DNA of 64,000 bases from a virus. Each line of letters opens with the position of its first letter. Position 1 is the first letter of the stretch. Position numbers and translations under genes: made by a program. The stretch covers positions 1-64,000 of IMG/VR virus record IMGVR_UViG_3300037086_000458. The stretch is one strand, 5' to 3'. Of the stretch, positions 1,260 through 44,292 are shown one piece after another. The notes under the pieces were generated by a model, which saw nothing but the letters and a program-made list of their open reading frames with translations, ran no database searches and had not been told where the DNA came from.

Positions 1260-1332
1260 TGGGCTAACAGGGATTCGAACCCCGAACTAACGGATTATGA
1301 GTCCGCTACTCTAACCATTGAGTTATTAGCCC
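1260..1332 (-). tRNA. tRNA with CAU anticodon (Met or lysidine-modified Ile)
   Basis: A complete cloverleaf is read on the minus strand: acceptor GGGCTAA/TTAGCCC, D-stem CTC/GAG, anticodon stem GCGGA/TCCGT around loop CTCATAA, and T-loop TTCGAAT. The anticodon is CAU. It could be elongator Met, or Ile with C34 converted to lysidine by TilS; the sequence alone does not settle this. The discriminator is A, and the 3' CCA is not encoded. Confidence 0.88.
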
Positions 1333-1396: not shown

Positions 1397-2692
1397 TTAC
1401 AAAGGAATAAATTTTCCATTTTTATTTCTCAAAAGCATCGGATTCTCTTTAAATGCAATATTACTATCAATCCAATTTAGTTTATTCCTGTCTTTAAAAT
1501 AGATTTGGGAATTTTCTTTATAGATATTGTCACCATAAAGAATATATGCTTTTAATCTGTGAATTTTTATATGCTTAACTGTATTATTATACGTAATATT
1601 AATAAAAGGATATTCACTTTTATTGTATATTATTTTTAATATCTTTCCTTTATGACTTATAACGTTGTTGCACCCATCAAAATGGTAACCTTTTTCTACA
1701 GCAAATTTTTCTAATTTATGAAAAGGAACCTTCCCTTTTTTTATAGATTTAACATACTTATGCTCGCTTTTAAGGCACTGTACGCTTTCATAGGCTGTTT
1801 CTAATATATCTGGACAGAAATTTTTCATCCACCTGTGGATTTTTTGATGATGCTTTTTTATTAATTTAGCTACTAAAGTAACCCATCCATATTTTGTAAA
1901 ATCAATATTACTACTCCTGATTTTAAAAATATTTTCTTTTTCTTTTTCGGCATACTCGTTTTTACGCTTTTTAAAATACTCTTCTTTTGACTGAATATTT
2001 TTTAATTTATGTTCAGCAAATTTATAAAGCCTACATTCTAAAATTTTTGTTTCGTATTTTCCAACATTGTTCAGAGTGTTTAAAAAATCTGATATTTTTT
2101 CCTGAGTAAGTTCATTAAATCGTATCCTATAGACTTTCCAGCCTCTTTCTACCAAAAGAGCTTGTTTTTTAATATCCCGATTTTGATTTTTAATATTTCT
2201 GAAGTGTTGTTTTCCATCCAACTCAATAGCTAATTTTACATTTAAAAAAACAAAATCTATAAAATACGGATATTCCGGGTACTCATTAATTATATCATAT
2301 TTTTTTAGTAAACTATGTTTGATAATGACACTATCAAAAAACCACTGTTCTATATAGCTCATTTCTCCATTTCTTCTTCTTTCCCATGCCGTTTTACCAA
2401 GTTTTTTCTTTAAATAATTGAATCTGGCGAGCCTTATCTTTTCTTTAGTTTCTTCTTTATATATCATTTTTATATGTGCATCTCGACAGATTTTATCTCC
2501 ACAGATAGAGCCGAATATGCTACCGTGTCCTCTATATTTACAATCTTTACCACATACCGGACATTTTGGTATTTCAAAATTTTCATGCTTAACTATGTAT
2601 TCCAAATAGGTGATATTATGAATTGTTTTTACATGTTGTGATAAAGTTATCTTGTTTGCACATTCTTTAGTACATATTTTACATTTTACCAT
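1397..2692 (-). CDS. Free-standing homing-type endonuclease (Vsr/DUF559-like)
   Basis: The 431-residue protein starts with a C2H2-like zinc finger (CKICTKEC...HVKTIH, residues 4-25). A second cysteine cluster follows (CPVCGKDC...CGDKICRDAH, about 44-72). A PD-(D/E)XK/Vsr-like nuclease core comes next: EQWFFD, then YPYFIDFVFLNVKLAIELDGKQH, then GWKVYRIRFNE. A C-terminal segment (KIHRLKAYILYG) resembles the HNH-associated modules of phage homing nucleases. Many free-standing phage homing endonucleases sit beside tRNA genes, as this one does between 1260-1332 and 2766-2865. It probably spreads itself by cutting phage lacking the insertion. Base composition is markedly AT-rich even for this genome. 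Confidence 0.75.
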   Translation of the reverse strand: MVKCKICTKECANKITLSQHVKTIHNITYLEYIVKHENFEIPKCPVCGKDCKYRGHGSIFGSICGDKICRDAHIKMIYKEETKEKIRLARFNYLKKKLGKTAWERRRNGEMSYIEQWFFDSVIIKHSLLKKYDIINEYPEYPYFIDFVFLNVKLAIELDGKQHFRNIKNQNRDIKKQALLVERGWKVYRIRFNELTQEKISDFLNTLNNVGKYETKILECRLYKFAEHKLKNIQSKEEYFKKRKNEYAEKEKENIFKIRSSNIDFTKYGWVTLVAKLIKKHHQKIHRWMKNFCPDILETAYESVQCLKSEHKYVKSIKKGKVPFHKLEKFAVEKGYHFDGCNNVISHKGKILKIIYNKSEYPFINITYNNTVKHIKIHRLKAYILYGDNIYKENSQIYFKDRNKLNWIDSNIAFKENPMLLRNKNGKFIPL

Positions 2693-2765: not shown

Positions 2766-2865
2766 TAGCGCGGATGGGAATCGAACCCATATTCCGGCCT
2801 TTCTTAGAGGACTTTTAATAATCCACTAAGAAAGGGCCGTATCCTAACCATTAGATGACCGCGCC
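2766..2865 (-). tRNA. tRNA-Glu(UUC) with a 28-nt insert in the anticodon loop
   Basis: On the minus strand the ends form a normal tRNA-Glu: acceptor GGCGCGG/CCGCGCT (one G-U), D-arm ATCTAATGGTTAGGAT, T-arm ATGGG-TTCGATT-CCCAT, discriminator A. The anticodon stem CGGCC/GGCCG is present. The 7-nt loop is instead 35 nt, starting CTTTC, which places UUC at 34-36. Removing 28 nt after C36 restores loop CTTTCAA and a 72-nt tRNA-Glu. The insert is self-complementary: CTTTCTTAG pairs exactly with CTAAGAAAG, burying the anticodon in a long helix. No group I intron core fits in 28 nt, and the archaeal bulge-helix-bulge shape is not seen. It may be a spliced tRNA, a decoy or a pseudogene. Confidence 0.8.
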
Positions 2866-2918
2866 ATCAAAGGTGCTTCGCTTGATATAGAATGTTAAAG
2901 AACAAATAAACTTATATA

Positions 2919-3109: not shown

Positions 3110-3754
3110 TTATTCATCCTCCTTTTCCTCTTTTTTTCCTTCCATGATTTTTTTCCCTTCTAAGTATATCTCATTGTTAATTTCAATTGAGGTCATACCT
3201 CGAAGTTGAGCAGCTTTATTACTGATATTCTGTAAAAAAACATGATCAGAAAAATCAGGACTTTTTATTATTTTAGGTTTATTGCTCAGAGTATTAACAA
3301 AATTAATAATGGGTGCTCCAAAGGGTAATAATCCTGTGTATTTTTTAGCCTTCTCTAAATGATGCATAAGATAGTGCTTTAAGGGATACAGAATAGCCCA
3401 TCTAGCTTTCATATATGAGAAAGCTATTAAATCCTCAACGGAAGGATCTTCTGAAATGGCAATTCTGTACGCATCATTATTACTCGCCATAAGTTCTGAT
3501 CTTATTTTAAAGATAGTTACATCATTAGGGGCCATTTTAAAAATATCTAAATGGTCCGGATGTTGCCTTTCAGTAAGTACTCTTTTGGCTTCAAAAAAGT
3601 TAAAACCGTTATGTATGATTCGAGGCTGGGCGAGATAATAAATAAGATTGTTACCAAATCTACTTATCTCTCTGGTATTCCCTTTTTCATCTTTAAATAT
3701 TAAGTCGTAGTCGAATGAAGCGTGAAGTTCATAAATTTCTCTGAGGGTAATCAT
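3110..3754 (-). CDS. Unrecognised protein, 214 aa
   Basis: I do not recognise the family. The protein is mixed alpha/beta in appearance, with no membrane segment or cysteine cluster and a highly charged lysine/glutamate tail (GKKEEKEDE). A good ribosome site (AAAGGAG) lies upstream of the ATG. The gene stands alone between the IS200/IS605-type element at 3861-4273 and the terminator at 2919-2960, so it is probably a single-gene transcript. No functional inference is safe. Confidence 0.6.
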   Translation of the reverse strand: MITLREIYELHASFDYDLIFKDEKGNTREISRFGNNLIYYLAQPRIIHNGFNFFEAKRVLTERQHPDHLDIFKMAPNDVTIFKIRSELMASNNDAYRIAISEDPSVEDLIAFSYMKARWAILYPLKHYLMHHLEKAKKYTGLLPFGAPIINFVNTLSNKPKIIKSPDFSDHVFLQNISNKAAQLRGMTSIEINNEIYLEGKKIMEGKKEEKEDE

Positions 3755-3860: not shown

Positions 3861-4273
3861 GATCCTCCACGAGAGGAAACCCACGGCTTTAGTCGTGGGA
3901 GGAATCGAGTCCTCCCACGACTGAGCCGGGAACCTGATAGAACTTAAAACCAAAACTCCTACAGGCTTACGGAATTCTGGACTCTATCTTGCCATTACTG
4001 GCAAGATAGGTAATTACTCCCTTCGAGACTGGCCTACGCAGAGGACGGGGACTTGGGAAGCATCCCTGACGTGCTCTGTCCTGCCACGGACAGTAGGCTC
4101 AGTTTCCTTCAAACGACCATTACCTGCCCTTACGGGCTTTGTATGGGTCCTTTCGGACGTCACGTTACTGATCTTGGACACTCTAGTCTCCATTTTGCTC
4201 TTGCAGAGCCCGTAGGGCTTGGCATTAGCCCTGACTCGAGGCAAGCCCACGACTTTAGTCGTGGGTAGTTGAC
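3861..4273 (+). mobile_element. Transposase-less IS200/IS605-type element with structured interior
   Basis: The left end has GATCCTCCA then a CCCACG...CGTGGG hairpin (3880-3899). The right end has CCCACGAC-TTTA-GTCGTGGG (4246-4265) followed by TAGTTGAC. The interior carries many perfect hairpins, for example ATCTTGCC/GGCAAGAT near 3990-4011, CTGTCC/GGACAG near 4080, GCCC/GGGC and GTCC/GGAC near 4130-4160. No convincing reading frame exists inside. This fits a non-autonomous element whose transcript is an omega-RNA-like structured RNA. The left end matches that of 20655-20979 and the right part matches 1-127. Confidence 0.7.
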
Positions 4274-4306
4274 ATAGGACCCCCTTTCACTATCCTTAAG
4301 TATAAC

Positions 4307-5432: not shown

Positions 5433-6605
5433 TTATTTTATTAGAGTTTTTTTGCAGAGTTCGATCGTTTCGAGGTCTCCTGTATTTTTGTTTATGTCGT
5501 CCGAAAGTTTAATTGTATTGACCCATCCATATGTTTCATCAAATAAGCAACCAATCAGTTTAATAACCATGTTTAAAGGTTTGACCCCTACATGGTTTGA
5601 GAGCCACGTCCCGATACCGTAACGATCATTTGTCCTGCCTTTGCAAGCCTCGTGTATGGTTTTAATCTGTTCAATGCTTTTGAGATTATCCGAAAATAAA
5701 AGCATCTTGTATAATGGATTTACCCTTAGTTTGTTATAATGGGCTAATACTTTTTCAAGGAAAGCGAGAGGTTCACCAGAGTCCTGGCGTAACCCGTCAT
5801 AGAGCTTGGCATATTTCGTATTAAACGATTGAAGAAAAACATCTGTGGTAAACGTGTCTGGAAGTCCGGTGCCTAGGTCCCCATGAAATACAGAAATCCA
5901 AGCGTCATTGGCTTTTTCGTTTGCCATAATGAAACCGTACAAAGCGGCGTGTAAAGAATACCATTCGTGAGCTACTGTTCCGGCTGGCATGAGATCGTGT
6001 ATCATTGCAAGATAAACATTACTCGTTCCAAGTAGGTGACCTTTTCCATATTTTTTAAGATCCTCGACTACTTTATTTTGGTTTTCAAAAGATTTTCTTC
6101 GACGTGTCCCGAATTCAGAATAATAAACATCAATATAGGCGAGATCCTGAGCCTTTTGTTTATTGATTTCGGTAAGTTTCTCGAGATCATACCCTCGTTG
6201 GCCAGTCATCTCAAAATAAAGCTCGCTAATCGTGGCCATTAAGGGTACTTCCCAAAGAACCGTATGATAAGCAGGGCCTATGATGTCCAAGCTTAATTTA
6301 GGCCCTTCTTGTTTGATTATGACCTCTTTTGGGTCGTATCGGTAACCGGATAAGAAATCGAGATAGACAGGATTTAGATAATAACATTTCTCCAGCATGA
6401 AGTCTTTTTCGTCTTTTTTAAGGGCAATGCCTCTGAAGCTGTCTACAATTTCAATTAGGCACTTATCGAACCCGTCTGGGAATTCGCGGTTGTCTCGGTT
6501 CACGAATCTGTAATGATTGAGGACCCTGGGATAGAGCTGGCAAATTGCCATCTGCATGGTGAATTTATAAATGTCTGAGTCTATTAGACTTACATGGTAT
6601 TTCAT
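5433..6605 (-). CDS. pncB: Nicotinate phosphoribosyltransferase
   Basis: The enzyme converts nicotinate and PRPP to nicotinate mononucleotide, the committed step of the Preiss-Handler NAD pathway. Diagnostic segments are the N-terminal DIYKFTMQMAI, the FGTRRRKSF motif near residue 165, GTVAHEWYSLHAALYG with the conserved phospho-accepting His near residue 213, and the C-terminal DRYGIGTWL region with the GIGT phosphate loop. The length of 390 is normal. The start ATG overlaps the stop of the 45-residue gene 6602-6739 by 4 bases. Phages use NAD-synthesis genes to support replication or to refill NAD drained by defence systems; which applies here is inference. Confidence 0.9.
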   Translation of the reverse strand: MKYHVSLIDSDIYKFTMQMAICQLYPRVLNHYRFVNRDNREFPDGFDKCLIEIVDSFRGIALKKDEKDFMLEKCYYLNPVYLDFLSGYRYDPKEVIIKQEGPKLSLDIIGPAYHTVLWEVPLMATISELYFEMTGQRGYDLEKLTEINKQKAQDLAYIDVYYSEFGTRRRKSFENQNKVVEDLKKYGKGHLLGTSNVYLAMIHDLMPAGTVAHEWYSLHAALYGFIMANEKANDAWISVFHGDLGTGLPDTFTTDVFLQSFNTKYAKLYDGLRQDSGEPLAFLEKVLAHYNKLRVNPLYKMLLFSDNLKSIEQIKTIHEACKGRTNDRYGIGTWLSNHVGVKPLNMVIKLIGCLFDETYGWVNTIKLSDDINKNTGDLETIELCKKTLIK

Positions 6606-9629: not shown

Positions 9630-9794
9630 CTATAGTTTATTACTTAAAAAAGCTTTATTTGCTGAGACTCTCCATCTTTTCCCGCAATGAGGGCATTTTC
9701 TTTTCCAGCTTACTCGCGGATGTTTTTTAGGAATATTGACCTCAAATTCTTTTCCACAGGAGATACATGGAATTTTTTTAACGTACTTTAACAT
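9630..9794 (-). CDS. Small zinc-ribbon protein, 54 aa
   Basis: Two CxxC knuckles (CISCGKEF at residues 10-17 and CPHCGKRW at 34-41) form a compact zinc ribbon in a basic protein. The ATG lies inside the end of the nucleotidyltransferase gene, giving a 17-base overlap, and the stop is ten bases before the next gene's ATG. The two-knuckle pattern and tight packing argue that it is real despite its size. Confidence 0.6.
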   Translation of the reverse strand: MLKYVKKIPCISCGKEFEVNIPKKHPRVSWKRKCPHCGKRWRVSANKAFLSNKL

Positions 9795-10923
9795 TTAGTG
9801 TTGCTTTTTCGAGGATACGATAATCGTGAAGGTATCGTTCACAGGTTGAAAAGCAAAGCTCCTTGATTTTTTTAATATTTGGAGATTTTTGCAAGGGAAC
9901 AGTTTTATATAGTTCCCCGGCTTCGTCATCCAGTTTTTTTGCATATTCCTCAAGCTTGTCAAAAGGCCAAGACCCCTGCCGGATCTCTTTTAGTTCCTCA
10001 GCGTCGATACCTGTTCGGTCGACATTAACTTTGCCTGTCTCAAGGATTTCTTTACACATGCGAATTAAACGCACTAGGTGAGCCGCATGCTTTGTGTCAA
10101 AACCAAATTTCTCCTCGAGCACGGCCCGGGCCTTGTTTCTGCTTTTTTGCCATTGAAGGAACCGATCCCACTCATGCTTGGCCGTATAATATTTCAGTTC
10201 TTTCTCAGCCTCTTCTAAGAATTCGTCCTTGATGTAGGATGGCCCAAGATTTTTGAGTGTGTTGGCTTGGGACTTTATCCCAACTTGAAGATATTCCAGG
10301 GCCAGGGCCCGACGATCCTCTTTGATGAACCGGGTAAATAAAGGCATAAGGTAATTTGAGTAGACGTTATCAAGCTCGTCTAAAAAATTTTGTTTCTCAT
10401 CTTCAATAAAAAAATCACCCATAGCAGAATAAACTATTGCCTTGATTTGGGCAGTCGGAAATTTTGATTTTTCGGTAAGTCCGAAGCTCTCCCGAGATGG
10501 TTCAATTTTTAATGGGTTTAAGAGGTATTTCCTATGAGTTTTTATTCTTTCAAGCTGTGCATATGCGTAACCTGAGAAAGTATACCGGCATTTTTTTGAG
10601 ACAAACAGGTCTCTATTTTCAACAAAAACTTGCCAGAAAGGAGTCATCTTAACAATGCAACGTTCAGGGATGAACAAAAGGTCCATCATATTCGGATTGT
10701 TATCCGCGATGAGAGTAAGGGCCTTACGAATATCATAGATAGTTTTGTCTTCATCCGGGTAATCAGAGAATTGATCGAACTTATCCAAACCATAGAAATA
10801 CTCCGGCCCTGGGATCATAACACCTGTTTTGTCAAAATCTGAATCAGGGGTGCTGATGCCATAAGCTTGGCTACCTACGATTGCTTCAAAAATGGTATGT
10901 TCTTCTACGTATTTGACGTCCAT
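9778..10923 (-). CDS. Predicted nucleotidyltransferase (RlaP/COG3541-like)
   Basis: The 381-residue protein has GSQAYGISTPDSDFDKTGV at residues 17-35: the DNA polymerase beta-type nucleotidyltransferase signature GS...DxD with metal-binding aspartates. It matches the RlaP/YcgL group (COG3541), found in many large phages. These proteins are thought to transfer a nucleotide to RNA or another target, but the substrate is not established. A charged helical C-terminal half follows. It is the first leftward gene across the divergent region facing the ribonucleotide reductase gene. Confidence 0.75.
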   Translation of the reverse strand: MDVKYVEEHTIFEAIVGSQAYGISTPDSDFDKTGVMIPGPEYFYGLDKFDQFSDYPDEDKTIYDIRKALTLIADNNPNMMDLLFIPERCIVKMTPFWQVFVENRDLFVSKKCRYTFSGYAYAQLERIKTHRKYLLNPLKIEPSRESFGLTEKSKFPTAQIKAIVYSAMGDFFIEDEKQNFLDELDNVYSNYLMPLFTRFIKEDRRALALEYLQVGIKSQANTLKNLGPSYIKDEFLEEAEKELKYYTAKHEWDRFLQWQKSRNKARAVLEEKFGFDTKHAAHLVRLIRMCKEILETGKVNVDRTGIDAEELKEIRQGSWPFDKLEEYAKKLDDEAGELYKTVPLQKSPNIKKIKELCFSTCERYLHDYRILEKATLNVKVR

Positions 10924-11261: not shown

Positions 11262-14200
11262 ATGGCTGAAAAGATAAATTTGACAGATAATGCTAAAAAA
11301 GTTCTCGCCTTAAGATATCTTAAAAAAAATGATAATGGTGAACCGATAGAAGAACCTGAAGATTTATTTCTTCGAGTTGCAGAAAATATAGCATCTATTG
11401 AAAAAAATCCAGAGAAATGGACTAAAATCTTTTATGATGTTATGGCTAACTTAGAATTCCTCCCCAACTCCCCTACACTTATGAATGCCGGTCGTGAACT
11501 TCAACAATTATCGGCGTGCTTTGTGCTCCCTGTTGGTGATTCTATGGAGGAAATTTTTGAAGCAGTAAAGAACACGGCATTAATCCACAAAAGTGGCGGT
11601 GGAACTGGCTTCTCCTTCTCTCGTCTTAGACCCGCAAATGATCGAGTTAAATCCACTAAAGGAGTATCTTCCGGTCCTCTATCTTTCATGAAAGTCTTTG
11701 ATGTAGCTACCGAGACTGTTAAACAAGGGGGCTGTTTTGTTGGAGACACTTTAGTAGCTACGGTAAAAGGCCCTAGGAAAATTAAAGAATTAAAAAAAGG
11801 TGAATTATTATATAGTATGTCTGAAAAAGGTTATGTTCTACGTCCTTGTTCTGATTCCTGGCTAACTATAAAAAATGCAGAAGTATGGAAAATTACTACA
11901 GATAAAGGATTGATTATATATGCTACTAAAAATCATCCTATTATGCCAAAAGTTGATTTTGATTTTGAAAAGAAAAACTATGTTAAAATTGAAGATTTAA
12001 AACCTGGATTTTCTTTAATGTCTATGGGTAGCTATATTCATAAAATTGCATCTGTAGAAGTATCCCATATAGAAGATGTCTATAATGTTGAGGTGGAAGA
12101 TACACATAACTTTGTTGTATGTAATGATACGATGAGTACAGGTGTTGTTGTTTCTAATACTAGACGTGGAGCAAATATGGGGATTCTGGATGTCTCCCAT
12201 CCAGATATTTTAGATTTTATCAGTATTAAAGAAAAAGATGGTGTACTTTCTAATTTTAATATATCTGTAGCTATTACGGATGAGTTTATGAAGGCTCTGG
12301 AAGATGATACAGAATATCCCCTACGTAATCCTCGAAGTGGTCAAATTGTCTCATATTTAAAAGCTTCAGATGTCTTTAAAAAGATAATTAATTGTGCCTG
12401 GAAAAACGGTGAACCTGGGATAATTTTCATAGATAAAATTAATGATAAAAACCCAACTCCTCATGTAGGGAAAGTCGAAAGTACAAACCCTTGTCTTGCA
12501 GGGGAAACTTTAGTAGCAGTAGCCGATGGTCGCATAGCTGTTCCAATAAAACAATTGGCTGAAGAAGATAAAGACGTTCCTGTATATTGTCGGAATGATG
12601 AAGGAAAAGTCACTATTAGAATGATGAGACATCCTAGGGTTACTGCTGAAGAGGCAGAAGTTTATAATGTAACCTTAGATGATGGGAGTGTAATAAAAGC
12701 TACAGCTAATCATAAAATTCTTTTATCAGATAATCATATGGTAAAAGTTTCAGATTTAAAATATGGTGATAGTGTCCATATTTTAAATAAAAAACTAGCT
12801 TCTTTTCATGAAATTATTGAAAAATGTAGAACTACCTCTTTAAAAGAATATTATTGGATAAGTAATAGGCCGGAACATCGAATAATTTATGAATTTTATA
12901 ATGGGCCTATCCCTAAAGGGTATGTTATTCATCATTATAATTTTGATAGTAAAGATAATAGAATAGAAAATTTAAAGTGTATGACAGTAGAAGCACATAA
13001 TGACCTTCATAAAGAGGGCAAAATAGGTGATAAGAATCCTATGCGACGGGCCCAAACTGAATGGTCAGAAGAAAAATGGCAACAATATCATGATAATATG
13101 AGTGAAGCAGTTTCTGGAGAATTAAATGGCCGTTTTTCAGGGATTTCTAATGAAACTCTTTTTACTATAGCTGTTGAGCTATCTAAAGAGTATAAAAGAA
13201 AATTATCTGTACATGATTGGGAGCAGATTGCTCTTAAAAATGGATATCCTTCTCAATTTTCAGAATATAGAATTAAAGTATTTGGAACTGTAAGTGATTT
13301 TCTTGATAAAGCAGCGATTGTAGCAGAAGTGCCTGGAACAGGATTAAATCATGCGCATTTAACTGGGTTTATAAATTTCTTAAGGATTAAAGAGACTTCA
13401 GATCTAGACTTGTTTTTTGATGAAACATACAATGAGTGTATTCGTGTACGTAAGATTTGTGAAGGTTGTGGCAAAAATTTTATTGTTCCTTATTCTCATA
13501 GAGAGCAGGGATATTGCTCTATAAGTTGTGCCAACAAAAATAGAGAAATTACAGAATATGACTTAAGAAAAAGACGTGAAACTAAAAATGTTATAAGGGA
13601 ACAAAAAAGAATTCAACAAATTAATGCTTTTAATGATTTGAAACTTCAGATAGGTCGTATTCCTATGAAAAAGGAATACACTGTATATTGCAAGAATAAT
13701 AGGATACCTTTTAGACTCCCTGTAAAACGTGAAATTGCTAATGGTATATTAATAGGGACTTTCACAGATTGGGAAGATTTAAAAGAAAAATCTCTGCAAT
13801 ATAACCATAGAGTTGTTTCTATTGAATACGCTGGAAAAGTTCCTGTTTATAATGGAACTGTAGATGATTTTCATAATTTTTATTTTGGTGGTTTTAAAAA
13901 TATAGCTGACGGAAGAGAAAAAATTGTATTTATAAATGGAGAAAATTGTGGTGAACAGCCATTACTTCCTTATGAATCTTGCAATTTAGGTTCTATTAAC
14001 TTAATCAAAATAATTGACGAAAATAATGACATCAATTTTGATAAGCTTGAAGGTATCGTCAAAATAGCGGTAAGATTTTTGGACAACGTCATAGATCTTA
14101 ATAAGTACCCCCTCCCAAGTATTGATAAAATGACTAAAAGTAACAGGAAAATTGGTCTTGGTGTCATGGGATTTGCGGATATGTTGATTAAATTAGGCAT

Positions 14201-15389
14201 ACCCTATAATTCTCCTGAGGCTTTAAACTTAGCTGAAAAGATAATGAAATTAATACAAGAAAAAGGGCGGGAAGAAAGTCGTGCTTTAGCAAAAGATCGT
14301 GGAATATTTCCAAATTTTAAAGGTTCAATATATGACAATGGCCCTGAATTACGTAACGCAACTATAACAACTATTGCTCCTACGGGTACTTTAAGTATGA
14401 TCGCCAGTTGTTCATCAGGGATAGAACCTTTATTTTCCCTTGTGTATGAAAAGAATGTCTTGGATGGAAGAAAATTTTTAGAAGTCCATCCTGAATTTTT
14501 AAAGGTAGCGAAACAAGAAGGTTTTTATTCAGAGAATTTAATGAAACAAGTAATGAAGAGTGGGAGTATATCAGAAATCCAAGAGATCCCACAGAAAATT
14601 AGGGATACCTTTGTAACAGCTCATGATGTAGATCCTAAGACTCATATCAATATACAGGCGGCATTTCAAAAATATACTGATAACGCTGTTTCTAAGACCA
14701 TTAATTTTAGGCATGATGCTACGATAAAGGATGTGGAGACTGCCTATAAGATGGCTTATGAGTCGGGTTGCAAAGGGGTTACAGTATATCGAGATGGATC
14801 TCGAGGAAATCAGGTTATGACTGTTGGGTCTTCCGAGAAACCTAATAAAATTATTGCCAGAGATATTAAATTACCAACAATTTTTAATAATGGACCCACT
14901 CGTATAATAAAAAAGGAGGGCAAAAAATTCTATCTTCATTTCTCATACCTGCCTGAGGATACAAGGAATGAGTTCCCGGTTGTTTTTTGGATACACACTA
15001 ATGCCAAATATAAGGCTGATGAGTTAAAAGTGTGCAATAAAGCTGCTCGAAATCTTGCTACTCTAGCATTAACTAGTGGTGTAGACCATAAATTCGTTAA
15101 TGAAACCATTGATAAAGCTAATGCAGATTACCCCCATAATAGACTTGGCAGGATGGTGAGCCTATGCCTTCGTCATAATGTCCCAAGAGAAGATATTTTA
15201 GTTTCACTATCTGATATCGATGGGGATAATATCTCCACACTCTTAACAGCTGTTAGAAAATTTTTGTCTGAAACATTACCTAATGGTACCGTGTTAAGAG
15301 GTTTAAAGTGCCCTGAATGTGGGGCCGTACTAATAATGCAGGAAAATTGTAAGAGATGCAGTTCGTGTACGTGGACGGCATGTGGTTAA
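11262..15389 (+). CDS. nrdJ: Class II (adenosylcobalamin-dependent) ribonucleotide reductase with two inteins
   Basis: The enzyme reduces ribonucleotides to deoxyribonucleotides for phage DNA synthesis. The precursor is 1375 residues; removing inteins at 158-299 and 411-895 leaves about 748, normal for NrdJ. Exteins carry SACFVLPVGDSMEEIF, the SGGGTGFSFSRLRP loop, NxCxE-type active-site region (PCGEQPLLPYESCNLGS) and the PTGTLSMIA phosphate-binding segment. The C-terminus holds CPECG and CKRCSSC cysteine pairs used in re-reduction. Both inteins sit in conserved active-site segments, as usual. This and the small gene behind it are the only rightward genes in the left 38 kb. Confidence 0.93.
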   Translation: MAEKINLTDNAKKVLALRYLKKNDNGEPIEEPEDLFLRVAENIASIEKNPEKWTKIFYDVMANLEFLPNSPTLMNAGRELQQLSACFVLPVGDSMEEIFEAVKNTALIHKSGGGTGFSFSRLRPANDRVKSTKGVSSGPLSFMKVFDVATETVKQGGCFVGDTLVATVKGPRKIKELKKGELLYSMSEKGYVLRPCSDSWLTIKNAEVWKITTDKGLIIYATKNHPIMPKVDFDFEKKNYVKIEDLKPGFSLMSMGSYIHKIASVEVSHIEDVYNVEVEDTHNFVVCNDTMSTGVVVSNTRRGANMGILDVSHPDILDFISIKEKDGVLSNFNISVAITDEFMKALEDDTEYPLRNPRSGQIVSYLKASDVFKKIINCAWKNGEPGIIFIDKINDKNPTPHVGKVESTNPCLAGETLVAVADGRIAVPIKQLAEEDKDVPVYCRNDEGKVTIRMMRHPRVTAEEAEVYNVTLDDGSVIKATANHKILLSDNHMVKVSDLKYGDSVHILNKKLASFHEIIEKCRTTSLKEYYWISNRPEHRIIYEFYNGPIPKGYVIHHYNFDSKDNRIENLKCMTVEAHNDLHKEGKIGDKNPMRRAQTEWSEEKWQQYHDNMSEAVSGELNGRFSGISNETLFTIAVELSKEYKRKLSVHDWEQIALKNGYPSQFSEYRIKVFGTVSDFLDKAAIVAEVPGTGLNHAHLTGFINFLRIKETSDLDLFFDETYNECIRVRKICEGCGKNFIVPYSHREQGYCSISCANKNREITEYDLRKRRETKNVIREQKRIQQINAFNDLKLQIGRIPMKKEYTVYCKNNRIPFRLPVKREIANGILIGTFTDWEDLKEKSLQYNHRVVSIEYAGKVPVYNGTVDDFHNFYFGGFKNIADGREKIVFINGENCGEQPLLPYESCNLGSINLIKIIDENNDINFDKLEGIVKIAVRFLDNVIDLNKYPLPSIDKMTKSNRKIGLGVMGFADMLIKLGIPYNSPEALNLAEKIMKLIQEKGREESRALAKDRGIFPNFKGSIYDNGPELRNATITTIAPTGTLSMIASCSSGIEPLFSLVYEKNVLDGRKFLEVHPEFLKVAKQEGFYSENLMKQVMKSGSISEIQEIPQKIRDTFVTAHDVDPKTHINIQAAFQKYTDNAVSKTINFRHDATIKDVETAYKMAYESGCKGVTVYRDGSRGNQVMTVGSSEKPNKIIARDIKLPTIFNNGPTRIIKKEGKKFYLHFSYLPEDTRNEFPVVFWIHTNAKYKADELKVCNKAARNLATLALTSGVDHKFVNETIDKANADYPHNRLGRMVSLCLRHNVPREDILVSLSDIDGDNISTLLTAVRKFLSETLPNGTVLRGLKCPECGAVLIMQENCKRCSSCTWTACG
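11733..12158 (+). other. Intein 1 of NrdJ, mini-intein without endonuclease
   Basis: A 142-residue intein starting at Cys158 (CFVGDTLVAT, block A) and ending VVVSN before Thr300. Block B is ATKNHPI with its TxxH; block F is VYNVEVEDTHNFVV. There is no endonuclease domain between B and F. It splits the reductase segment KQGG/TRRGANMG. The terminal residue is Asn; the penultimate is Ser instead of His; the +1 residue is Thr. Confidence 0.85.
12492..13946 (+). other. Intein 2 of NrdJ, with HNH homing endonuclease
   Basis: A 485-residue intein from Cys411 (CLAGETLVAV) to the Asn before Cys896, inserted in STNP/CGEQPLLP. Block B is ATANHKI. An HNH endonuclease lies near intein residues 142-172 (GYVIHHYNFDSKDNRIENL...). 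A zinc finger follows (CEGCGKNF...CSISCANK). Block F is VYNGTVDDFHNFYF. The C-terminal end INGEN has Glu at the penultimate position where His is usual. Confidence 0.88.
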
Positions 15390-19704: not shown

Positions 19705-19746
19705 ATATAAATTGATTTTGTATGCTGGAGTAGATCCACTTCGAGG

Positions 19747-19952
19747 TTGTTTAAAGTCAGTACTTTATCCTGTACACTGAGACTTTGGTCTCTGTTTAAT
19801 ACAGAATTTTCAGAGCTACAGACTTGTGGAGTATCTGTAGGTGAGTTCTGGAACTTTACTTTAAACTTCTGCATAAGATTTCTCTTAAGCCCTCTAATCA
19901 ACTCTTACGTTGAATCTCACGATTCAAGCCACGTTATTCTGTGGTAGCTGAC
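19747..19952 (+). mobile_element. Degenerate IS200/IS605-type right end with structured RNA-like body
   Basis: The end CAAGCCACG...GTGGTAGCTGAC (hairpin 19929-19944) matches the right ends at 127 and 4273 with changes. Upstream are hairpins GAGAC-TTTG-GTCTC and CTACAGA/TCTGTAG extended by TTCAGA/TTCTGGAA, the look of an omega-RNA scaffold. No left end is recognised. It covers the 3' end of the leftward gene 19924-20319. Confidence 0.5.
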
Positions 19953-37333: not shown

Positions 37334-37576
37334 TTACTTCTTTGATTTTAGATTGATATTAATTTTGAACAGGTGCAGGAAGGTATTCCGTAGACTCCAA
37401 GCTACTAAGACTATCCCGAAGCACATTAATATTACCACCAAGGCTGCACAGAATACTATACCGATCCACCTTATGACTACAAACACCATAGGCTCATATT
37501 TGCAAAATAAAATGATGCCTATGACGGATAATAAGGTTGGTGTAAAATAAAGAAGACCTTTAAGAACGTTTTTCAT
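37334..37576 (-). CDS. Small membrane protein with two or three hydrophobic segments
   Basis: The 80-residue protein has hydrophobic helices near residues 8-28 and 33-65 and a short basic C-terminal tail (INLKSKK). Its start ATG overlaps the KptA-like gene stop by 4 bases, and its stop is adjacent to the helicase ATG. It could be a holin or membrane anchor; the sequence does not decide. Confidence 0.6.
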   Translation of the reverse strand: MKNVLKGLLYFTPTLLSVIGIILFCKYEPMVFVVIRWIGIVFCAALVVILMCFGIVLVAWSLRNTFLHLFKININLKSKK

Positions 37577-38466
37577 AATACCCCCTTGATATACTCTTTT
37601 TTTACGTCTGTTATGATATATTCACCCTCTTCATACGTTGAAAATTTTAACCCATCCCCATATGCTTTTTTTGCATCGATTACTAATAAGGATATTTTGT
37701 CATCCATATGTACTGCAAATTTTTTTGCGAAGTTTGTTGCATTGTCCTTATTGCAGTAAAGTTTGATATATTTTTTTGTATTGCTAAAAATACCTTTATC
37801 TTTCATTTTGTTGGCTAAGTTTGTTAGGGTGCCAAAATAGAGCTCATCAGGAGGGCAGAGATACACTTTCAATTTATATTTAATAAGATTTTGGTCTTTA
37901 AATATTATTTTTCTATGCTTATCTTTAAAAAAGAGCTCTATGATGTGATTTTTGGTTATGTAGGATAAAAATGGCATTCTTTTTTTGATGGTTCCACAAA
38001 GATCGTTAACCTTAAAATATCCCTCCGTGTCTTTATCTAAACTAGCAATATTGTTACGTAGAAGATGCACTGAGGAAATAAGAGTGGTGTCTAAATCACT
38101 TTGACTTGAAAATAAGGTGGAGGTTGGCTTACCTACGTGTAATATTTCTGTTGCCTGAACCTGAGAGTCAATGTCATATTTTATGTAATCGTCATCTTTA
38201 AATGAAATTTTCCTTACCAGATCTTTGAAATAAAATTCAATGATGTGATTTCTGTTGATATAATATAAGGCTGGTATTTTGTCTTTTAAGGTGGATATTA
38301 TGTAATTTATTGGAAAAAATCCATCAGAGTCCATAGGAAGATAAGAATAAGCTGAATATAAAATTTCTACGGAAGCAGTTAAAGCCATATCAAGATCTTT
38401 TTGAGATTTATAGAAAGTAGGAGAAGGTCTAACATCAAGCTCGTTAAGGATCATTTTATTCCCCAT
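37573..38466 (-). CDS. KptA/Tpt1-like protein with duplicated winged-helix domain
   Basis: The C-terminal half matches RNA 2'-phosphotransferase KptA: PPDELYFGTLTNLANKMKDKGIF (family PPxxLYHGT), IKLYCNKDNATNFAKKF (family VHLS...), VIDAKKAYGDGLKF and YIITDVKKEYI. KptA removes a 2'-phosphate from RNA, such as a tRNA splice junction, using NAD. The N-terminal winged-helix segment occurs twice (about residues 13-95 and 110-195; NHIIEF(Y/F)FKD is repeated). The HGT histidine is Phe, and the RH pair and the Arg of the IRA motif are altered. It may be inactive, have a changed activity, or only bind RNA or NAD. Confidence 0.6.
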   Translation of the reverse strand: MGNKMILNELDVRPSPTFYKSQKDLDMALTASVEILYSAYSYLPMDSDGFFPINYIISTLKDKIPALYYINRNHIIEFYFKDLVRKISFKDDDYIKYDIDSQVQATEILHVGKPTSTLFSSQSDLDTTLISSVHLLRNNIASLDKDTEGYFKVNDLCGTIKKRMPFLSYITKNHIIELFFKDKHRKIIFKDQNLIKYKLKVYLCPPDELYFGTLTNLANKMKDKGIFSNTKKYIKLYCNKDNATNFAKKFAVHMDDKISLLVIDAKKAYGDGLKFSTYEEGEYIITDVKKEYIKGVL

Positions 38467-43175: not shown

Positions 43176-43777
43176 TATCAAGTGTCATATATGACGATGT
43201 TGAAGCTATTAAAAGTGCTTTAAAGCTTCATTGTGATAATCAAAATATAGATCTTGATCCAACATATAGTACTGGCGGTTTCTATAAAGGCGGCTTTATT
43301 AAAAAGCCACGTTTTTGTTTTGACATTGATCCACAAGTTCCTGGGGTAATAAAAGCAGATGCATCTAAATTACCTTTGGCTAATTTTTCAGTTAAGACAA
43401 TTATTTTTGATCCTCCGTTTTTAGCGACTACAGGACCCTCTTTAAAAAGTAAAAATAAGAATAATAAACTTAATAAGAGATTTGGAGTTTTTCCAAATGA
43501 ACCGGCTCTTTTTAAGTTTTACGAGGATGCTATTAAAGAACTTTATCGTGTATGTAGTGAAAGTGGTACGTTAATATTTAAATGTCAGGATAAAGTTAGT
43601 TCTGGAAAGCAGTATTTTTCTCATTGTTTTATATATAATAAGGCAATTGAAGTTGGTTGGCATCCTGTAGATTTTTTTATTATGATATCTAAAAGAAGAT
43701 TGATAGCAAATTGGCAGAGAGCAAATCAGTTACATGCTAGGAAATTTCATTGTTATTACTGGATTTTTAAGAAATGA
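43172..43777 (+). CDS. DNA methyltransferase-like protein
   Basis: The 201-residue protein has the amino-methyltransferase motif IV DPPF (IIFDPPFLATTGP near residue 84), with IDLDPTYSTGGFYKGG near residue 26 and CFDIDPQVPG near residue 46. A region that fits motif X/I order is LYRVCSESGTLIFKCQDK. It may methylate adenine (N6) or cytosine (N4) in phage DNA as protection against restriction. The target sequence cannot be deduced. It is shorter than typical stand-alone enzymes. Confidence 0.65.
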   Translation: MISSVIYDDVEAIKSALKLHCDNQNIDLDPTYSTGGFYKGGFIKKPRFCFDIDPQVPGVIKADASKLPLANFSVKTIIFDPPFLATTGPSLKSKNKNNKLNKRFGVFPNEPALFKFYEDAIKELYRVCSESGTLIFKCQDKVSSGKQYFSHCFIYNKAIEVGWHPVDFFIMISKRRLIANWQRANQLHARKFHCYYWIFKK

Positions 43778-44292
43778 ACTTAGTAATAGGCTGCGGATTA
43801 CAAAAGAGTTATTTTAATCCTAAAGGTTCAAGATATTTAGGTGAAAAAGCCGATGTCTTAGACGTTAGATTAAAATCTTATTTCAAGTCTTTAAGTTTAG
43901 ATAAAAATATTGTATATATCTTAAGAGAGATCCACCAACCTGATGATTCTTTTTTTTCAGGTCAGAAATCTGGTTCTATAGTCGGTTCAGAGGATATAGA
44001 GATACCAGAATTTTATAAATCTTATTGTAAATTTGTGTATAATATTATAAGATATAATGGGTTTTATAAGACCCCTTTGGACTCAGAGGTTTATAAGCTA
44101 AAACCTGAAAAAGTTTATATTGTTGGTGTGGAGACACACACCACCGTACTTTTCACCGCAGAAGAATTCAGAAATAGGGGCTACTCAGTGAATGTTATTG
44201 AGCCTCTCGTGTCAGCTAAAGAAGATTATCTTCATGCAGTGGGGATAACTCTTTTGAGAAATTATCTGAGCGTTAATATACAACAGGGGTGA
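43774..44292 (+). CDS. Isochorismatase/nicotinamidase-fold protein without catalytic residues
   Basis: The isochorismatase pattern is clear: LVIGCGLQKSYFNPKGS at the N-terminus, REIHQPDDSFFSG in the middle, and VGVETHTTVLFTAEEFRNRGYSVNVIEPLVSA near residues 114-145. The catalytic Asp (D in DxQxDF) is Gly, and the nucleophilic Cys (THxCV) is Thr. Nicotinamidase would feed the PncB step encoded at 5433-6605, but this copy appears inactive, so it may bind a ligand or regulate. Confidence 0.6.
   Translation: MNLVIGCGLQKSYFNPKGSRYLGEKADVLDVRLKSYFKSLSLDKNIVYILREIHQPDDSFFSGQKSGSIVGSEDIEIPEFYKSYCKFVYNIIRYNGFYKTPLDSEVYKLKPEKVYIVGVETHTTVLFTAEEFRNRGYSVNVIEPLVSAKEDYLHAVGITLLRNYLSVNIQQG

Follow-up and report, generated by a model that had tools for sequence, protein, structure and literature searches.

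A tRNA-Glu gene carrying a 28-nt hairpin in its anticodon loop in a viral contig, and short structured tRNA inserts in its huge-phage relatives

Protein-type tRNA splicing is, to our knowledge, confined to archaea and eukaryotes, whose short introns near position 37 of the anticodon loop pair with the anticodon and, in the bulge-helix-bulge form cleaved by the PF01974 endonuclease, present two 3-nt bulges with a 4-bp helix between them. In bacterial and phage tRNA genes, anticodon loops are interrupted by group I introns (PMC3984707), and circularly permuted tRNA genes have been described in red algae and others (PMC3978253). One free-standing homing endonuclease, SegB of T-even phages, acts on the phage tRNA region (PMC13096335). 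When jumbo phages were compared, RlaP was found alongside RNA ligases and was predicted to put back the nucleotides that anticodon loops lose when they are cut, and KptA and 2H enzymes were predicted to clean up 2'-phosphates (PMC7824862).

The window, meaning the whole stretch of 64,000 nt that was analysed, belongs to an 86-kb viral contig (IMG/VR record IMGVR_UViG_3300037086_000458). An interrupted tRNA-Glu gene lies at 2766-2865 on the minus strand, the coordinates and strand given in a first-pass annotation, and the tRNA-Glu body proposed there was recovered both by Rfam covariance search (RF00005, full model, 49.8 bits against a gathering score of 29) and by ARAGORN, which called a normal tRNA-Glu(ttc) once the 28 nt following C36 had been deleted. 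The 5' exon (2830-2865, minus strand; 36 nt, tRNA positions 1-36, the last nt being C36) and the 3' exon (2766-2801, minus strand; 36 nt, tRNA positions 37-73) were defined from the sequence and from ARAGORN on the insert-free version. Between them lies the 28-nt insert TTAGTGGATTATTAAAAGTCCTCTAAGA (2802-2829, minus strand), whose length is fixed and whose boundary can slide by a few nt. As encoded, the anticodon loop measures 35 nt, as had been noted earlier, and not the 7 nt of a tRNA-Glu; in the RF00005 alignment, 31 nt of the loop stand against 3 in the model. ARAGORN missed the gene at default settings; when introns were allowed, it placed an insertion of 28 nt inside the anticodon loop. 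The acceptor, D, anticodon, and T arms are intact and form a cloverleaf, the closing pair 1-72 is G-U, and the gene encodes no 3'-terminal CCA. The sole phage match to the spliced form was the tRNA-Glu of Salmonella phage SPAsTU (78% identity).

This tRNA cannot decode unless the hairpin is taken out. Removal of 28 nt after C36, as first suggested, does give tRNA-Glu(UUC), but the cut site is not unique: 28-nt deletions after loop position 2, 3, 4, or 5 all keep U33 and A37 and yield the anticodons AGA, UGA, UUA, and UUC, respectively, and ARAGORN's own choice among the possible sites was UUA. The sequence does not fix one position. Of the four anticodons, UUC is preferred, as it alone agrees with the tRNA-Glu body.

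Folding placed the insert and the loop in one long hairpin that extends the anticodon stem, with the order 5-bp anticodon stem, bulged C, 8 bp (UUUCUUAG/CUAAGAAA), U-U mismatch, 5 bp, and 6-nt loop. Of the two arms of this extended hairpin, the 5' one is TTTCTTAG (2826-2833, minus strand), which contains U33-C36, and the 3' one is CTAAGAAA (2800-2807, minus strand). The arm pairing described in the first-pass annotation holds for the 8 bp, but its ninth pair competes with the closing C-G of the stem. The minimum free energy of the anticodon arm was -24.2 kcal/mol, compared with a mean of -10.4 (sd 2.3) in 5000 shuffles in which the exons were held fixed and only the 28-nt insert was permuted in place, and none of the shuffled inserts (0/5000) reached the observed value. 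The whole-gene folding z-score was -5.65, to which the tRNA fold itself contributes a part. The hairpin of the insert exceeds chance, which bears out the self-complementarity reported for it; the anticodon was found paired with the insert, as had also been proposed, and in the predicted fold it would be held in the helix until removal.

Like the protein-spliced tRNA introns of archaea and eukaryotes, the insert is short, lies in the anticodon loop near position 37, pairs with the anticodon, and would on removal restore the tRNA. Unlike them, it lacks the two-bulge motif and follows position 36 and not 37, and no PF01974 endonuclease was found in its contig, which may be incomplete. A bulge-helix-bulge was rejected, in agreement with the earlier reading, since the helix formed by the insert runs on without a break apart from a single bulged C and a single U-U mismatch. 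Group I introns share with the insert a location in the anticodon loop of tRNA genes, phages included; this class had likewise been discounted and was rejected here, as 28 nt is too short for the catalytic core, which takes at least some 200 nt, and Rfam gave no group I match. Neither the insert nor the gene matched any Rfam family other than tRNA. Longer anticodon-loop interruptions, of about 140-200 nt, were seen at L160:10464-10672 (-), L164:11177-11420 (-), and L169:11998-12276 and 12361-12632, and these are possibly group I introns. The disrupted gene order of circularly permuted tRNA genes has a counterpart in a relative of the contig (G002, below), whereas the window tRNA-Glu is unpermuted.

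Upstream of the tRNA-Glu gene are a boxA-like TTCTTTAACA (2893-2902, minus strand), its function being read from resemblance alone, and a terminator-like hairpin (2926-2960). A DUF559-type endonuclease gene (1397-2692, minus strand; Pfam DUF559, 1.1e-9; PHROG HNH endonuclease, 4e-4) is located 73 nt downstream and, judged by these matches, probably encodes a free-standing homing endonuclease; beyond it lies an uninterrupted tRNA with a CAU anticodon (1260-1332, minus strand; ARAGORN and Rfam). The RNA-repair genes of the contig comprise the RNA-repair-associated nucleotidyltransferase RlaP (9778-10923, minus strand; Pfam PF10127, 9.6e-23; phrog_388, 8e-59), a KptA/Tpt1-like RNA 2'-phosphotransferase domain (37573-38466, minus strand; Pfam PF01885, 4.1e-6, and weaker in a genome search), and a 2H phosphoesterase (contig positions 78001-78355). 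RtcB, RNA_ligase PF09414, and the tRNA splicing endonuclease PF01974 were not found in the 86-kb contig, which is possibly a fragment.

Further cases were sought using a pattern that describes a tRNA-Glu carrying an insert of 9-39 nt at the same place and that does match the window gene. The pattern, a strict one (GGTTAGGA D loop and CC/GG beside the loop) with other isoacceptors and divergent tRNA-Glu outside its reach, gave 0 matches in 2.9 million viral contigs and 12 in 84,980 genomes, none of the latter being a true interrupted tRNA-Glu: in 11 of them the tRNA-Glu gene was ordinary and uninterrupted and a GTTCRA happened to lie downstream, and the twelfth contained no tRNA according to ARAGORN. 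An exact D-arm plus anticodon pattern gave 0 matches. A mobile hairpin had also been suggested, and against it the 86-kb contig contains no second copy of the insert and the hairpin arms, which occur in 21 viral contigs, lie within a tRNA in none of them. None of the relatives spans the locus. G001, a near-identical contig (TerL 100%), is confined to the other part of the genome and stops short of the tRNA, and G002 (TerL 74%), which comes next in relatedness, is colinear in part and ends before the tRNA-Glu locus. Neither the ORF at 3110-3754 near the tRNA nor the endonuclease at 1397-2692 had relatives among viral contigs. Comparable inserts in phage tRNAs were not described in the titles and abstracts searched, a scope that excluded subscription papers and preprints. 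The interrupted tRNA-Glu is a real and unusual finding.

The TerL relatives of the contig include many huge phages, and about two dozen of the 492 ARAGORN calls in the tRNA regions of these relatives were interrupted tRNAs, many of which have one short structured element in common. It consists of P1 (about 8 bp), an internal loop with the sequence NNCUC, a P2 rich in GC pairs, 4-6 nt on the opposite strand, P1', and ACA(A/C)G near the 3' exon. A structure descriptor of the element matched 10 times in 575 kb, compared with 0, 0, and 1 in shuffles, and a covariance model (R1/R2) built from 13 sequences identified 23 sites in six of these distantly related huge phages, 10 of the 23 being absent from the model-building set. 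These copies are located at L161:16876-17869 (-), L174:419-1552 (-), L175:18620-18994, L176:104-789, L177:4833-5234, L178:8687-9087, L183:8787-8855 and 10588-10646 (-), and L185:16397-16812. The element covaries strongly: both sides of a pair had changed in 65 cells, compared with 24.8 in column shuffles, in an alignment that was fitted to the structure and is to that extent biased in its favour; the signal was lost when partners were slid by 1-3 columns. At 22 of the 23 sites a T loop follows and the enclosing acceptor stem pairs 7/7, the 5' strand being the best choice within 90 nt. The element occupies the variable loop mostly and the anticodon loop in some cases, and in the three loci scanned it matched no Rfam family besides tRNA.

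A match to RtcB or the RNA_ligase family was present in all six element-bearing phages (that of G015 below cut-off); the association of ligase and element is weak because several element-free phages have such matches too. tRNA interruption in the huge-phage lineage is real, the structured short inserts are apparently new, and the element possibly represents an undescribed class of tRNA intron. The window insert resembles these inserts as a short hairpin in a tRNA gene of a phage of the same terminase family. It differs in lacking the NNCUC internal loop, the 3' ACA(A/C)G, and the mainly variable-loop position, and its membership of the class was rejected, as it has neither the NNCUC loop nor UACA and the R1/R2 models gave no match in the contig of the window.

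In G002, the closest large relative, six RNA units at 161.5-162.8 kb (L082:1544-2700) each lie inside a long covarying stem, or capsule, whose conserved strands resemble GGCATACAT and GACGACTTG, and each unit has a boxA-like motif ahead. The units contain two circularly permuted tRNAs, two unpermuted tRNAs with odd anticodon loops, and two other RNAs. The break point of the permuted tRNAs is the variable loop, and when rejoined they were called by ARAGORN as tRNA-Cys(gca), with C33 instead of the usual U33, and tRNA-Arg(tcg). The capsule strands carry an ACTY internal loop and UACA after P1', and by analogy with permuted intron-exon arrangements the capsule may be the short insert of the other relatives in permuted order. 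The R1/R2 models found nothing in G002, as would be expected because a permuted order would escape them. One unpermuted tRNA (L082:2050-2138) contains a 10-nt tandem duplication (TTTCCATATA) that forms an extra hairpin in the anticodon loop, and without the duplication it was called as tRNA-Ile(tat) by ARAGORN; this duplication is the nearest analogue of the 28-nt insert. Elsewhere, a tRNA-like gene of doubtful identity with a 29-nt anticodon loop and an extended hairpin (L162:8943-9050 (-)) is a possible parallel to the window tRNA-Glu.

An intact tRNA body, an insert lying precisely within the loop, and the healing genes make removal of the insert the leading explanation, and it is tentatively proposed from the sequence that the hairpin may be a small intervening sequence that must be removed to give a functional tRNA. 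A nuclease of host or phage would cut the extended hairpin at its base, after which RNA-repair enzymes of the phage or host would heal and seal the ends, with RlaP, the KptA/Tpt1-like protein, and the 2H phosphoesterase as the phage candidates. This proposal is supported by the normal tRNA-Glu, with all arms intact, that remains once the insert is gone, by an insert that adjoins the anticodon and is structured beyond chance, and by healing genes of the kinds reported for cut tRNAs in jumbo phages (PMC7824862). Further support comes from the relatives, where short non-group-I tRNA inserts and the 10-nt anticodon-loop duplication of G002 occur; such interruptions in phages of the same terminase family raise the odds of splicing without proving it. 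The proposal is weakened by the relatives' inserts being structurally different and their model lacking a match in the window, and by an anticodon that is paired with the insert and an exact cut site that is undefined. It is weakened also by the single instance of the insert and by the lack of a splicing endonuclease, RtcB, or PF09414 ligase among the genes found, and these two points also favour a dead tRNA, nearly as likely as removal, in which an inverted-repeat insertion disabled the gene and the other arms have not yet decayed. Such an insertion could have arisen by template switching at the quasi-palindrome CCTTTCAAGG, the loop being already a partial palindrome, or when a cut by the endonuclease whose gene adjoins was repaired; yet the body carries no other damage, and an insertion into a 7-nt loop in phase with the stem needs luck or a palindrome mechanism.

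The contig is the sole record at the locus, the near-identical G001 stopping short of it, and short inverted repeats are a known signature of chimeras. An artefact of assembly or amplification, by which a single metagenome contig would have gained a chimeric inverted repeat, is nevertheless very improbable, since the arms are imperfect (a U-U mismatch and a distinct loop), unlike those that simple fold-back copying would give, and the tRNA on either side is undamaged. Hardly more probable is a protective change, in which the extended arm would make the tRNA, or its gene, hard to cut for an anticodon nuclease or for the homing endonuclease encoded next to it, or would turn the RNA into a decoy. 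The endonuclease gene beside the tRNA-Glu and the precedent of SegB (PMC13096335) fit this explanation, but an unspliced tRNA would not decode and a hidden anticodon is ill suited to a decoy; the decoy for anticodon nucleases envisaged in the first-pass annotation is unsupported, as the loop offered is base-paired and not exposed. As for removal, protein splicing, which had been raised earlier, is possible: healing-type genes are present, but an endonuclease, RtcB, and an RNA_ligase-family ligase were not found in the 86-kb contig. The narrower proposal that the hairpin could be a minimal protein-removed phage tRNA intron, outside the group I and bulge-helix-bulge classes and handled by phage RNA-repair genes, is rather unlikely. 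If it were true, the insert, together with what is seen in the relatives (short inserts and permuted tRNAs), would imply tRNA-splicing systems operated by phages themselves. Removal of the insert in infected cells would place protein-type tRNA splicing in bacterial viruses, whereas a dead tRNA-Glu gene would be of interest only as a small oddity. Either way, the short inserts and permuted arrays of the relatives would represent testable and apparently undescribed tRNA processing in huge phages.

Several other features were observed. The huge-phage relative G028 encodes an RNase P RNA of bacterial class A (299.5 bits) at L161:14011-14375 (-), and a HEARO RNA (102.7 bits), beside which no HNH endonuclease gene was noticed, lies at 19730-19952 (minus strand) of the window. 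A GC-rich segment at 3870-4275 (minus strand) is flanked by CCCACGACTAAAGTCGTGGG-type palindromes and presumably resembles the termini of an IS200/IS605 element that has no transposase gene; a TnpB-like ORF is located at contig positions 72513-73628. The NAD-related genes of the window encode a nicotinate phosphoribosyltransferase (5433-6605, minus strand), an isochorismatase-like protein (43774-44292, plus strand), and the KptA/Tpt1-like protein (37573-38466, minus strand), and perhaps serve NAD replenishment against host defence. A single ORF at L024:13632-15590 (+) contains both a LAGLIDADG endonuclease region and a DNA modification domain of the Mom type and is perhaps an interrupted Mom gene, and the ribonucleotide reductase of the window (11262-15389, plus strand) contains two intein-like interruptions, one of which bears an HNH domain.
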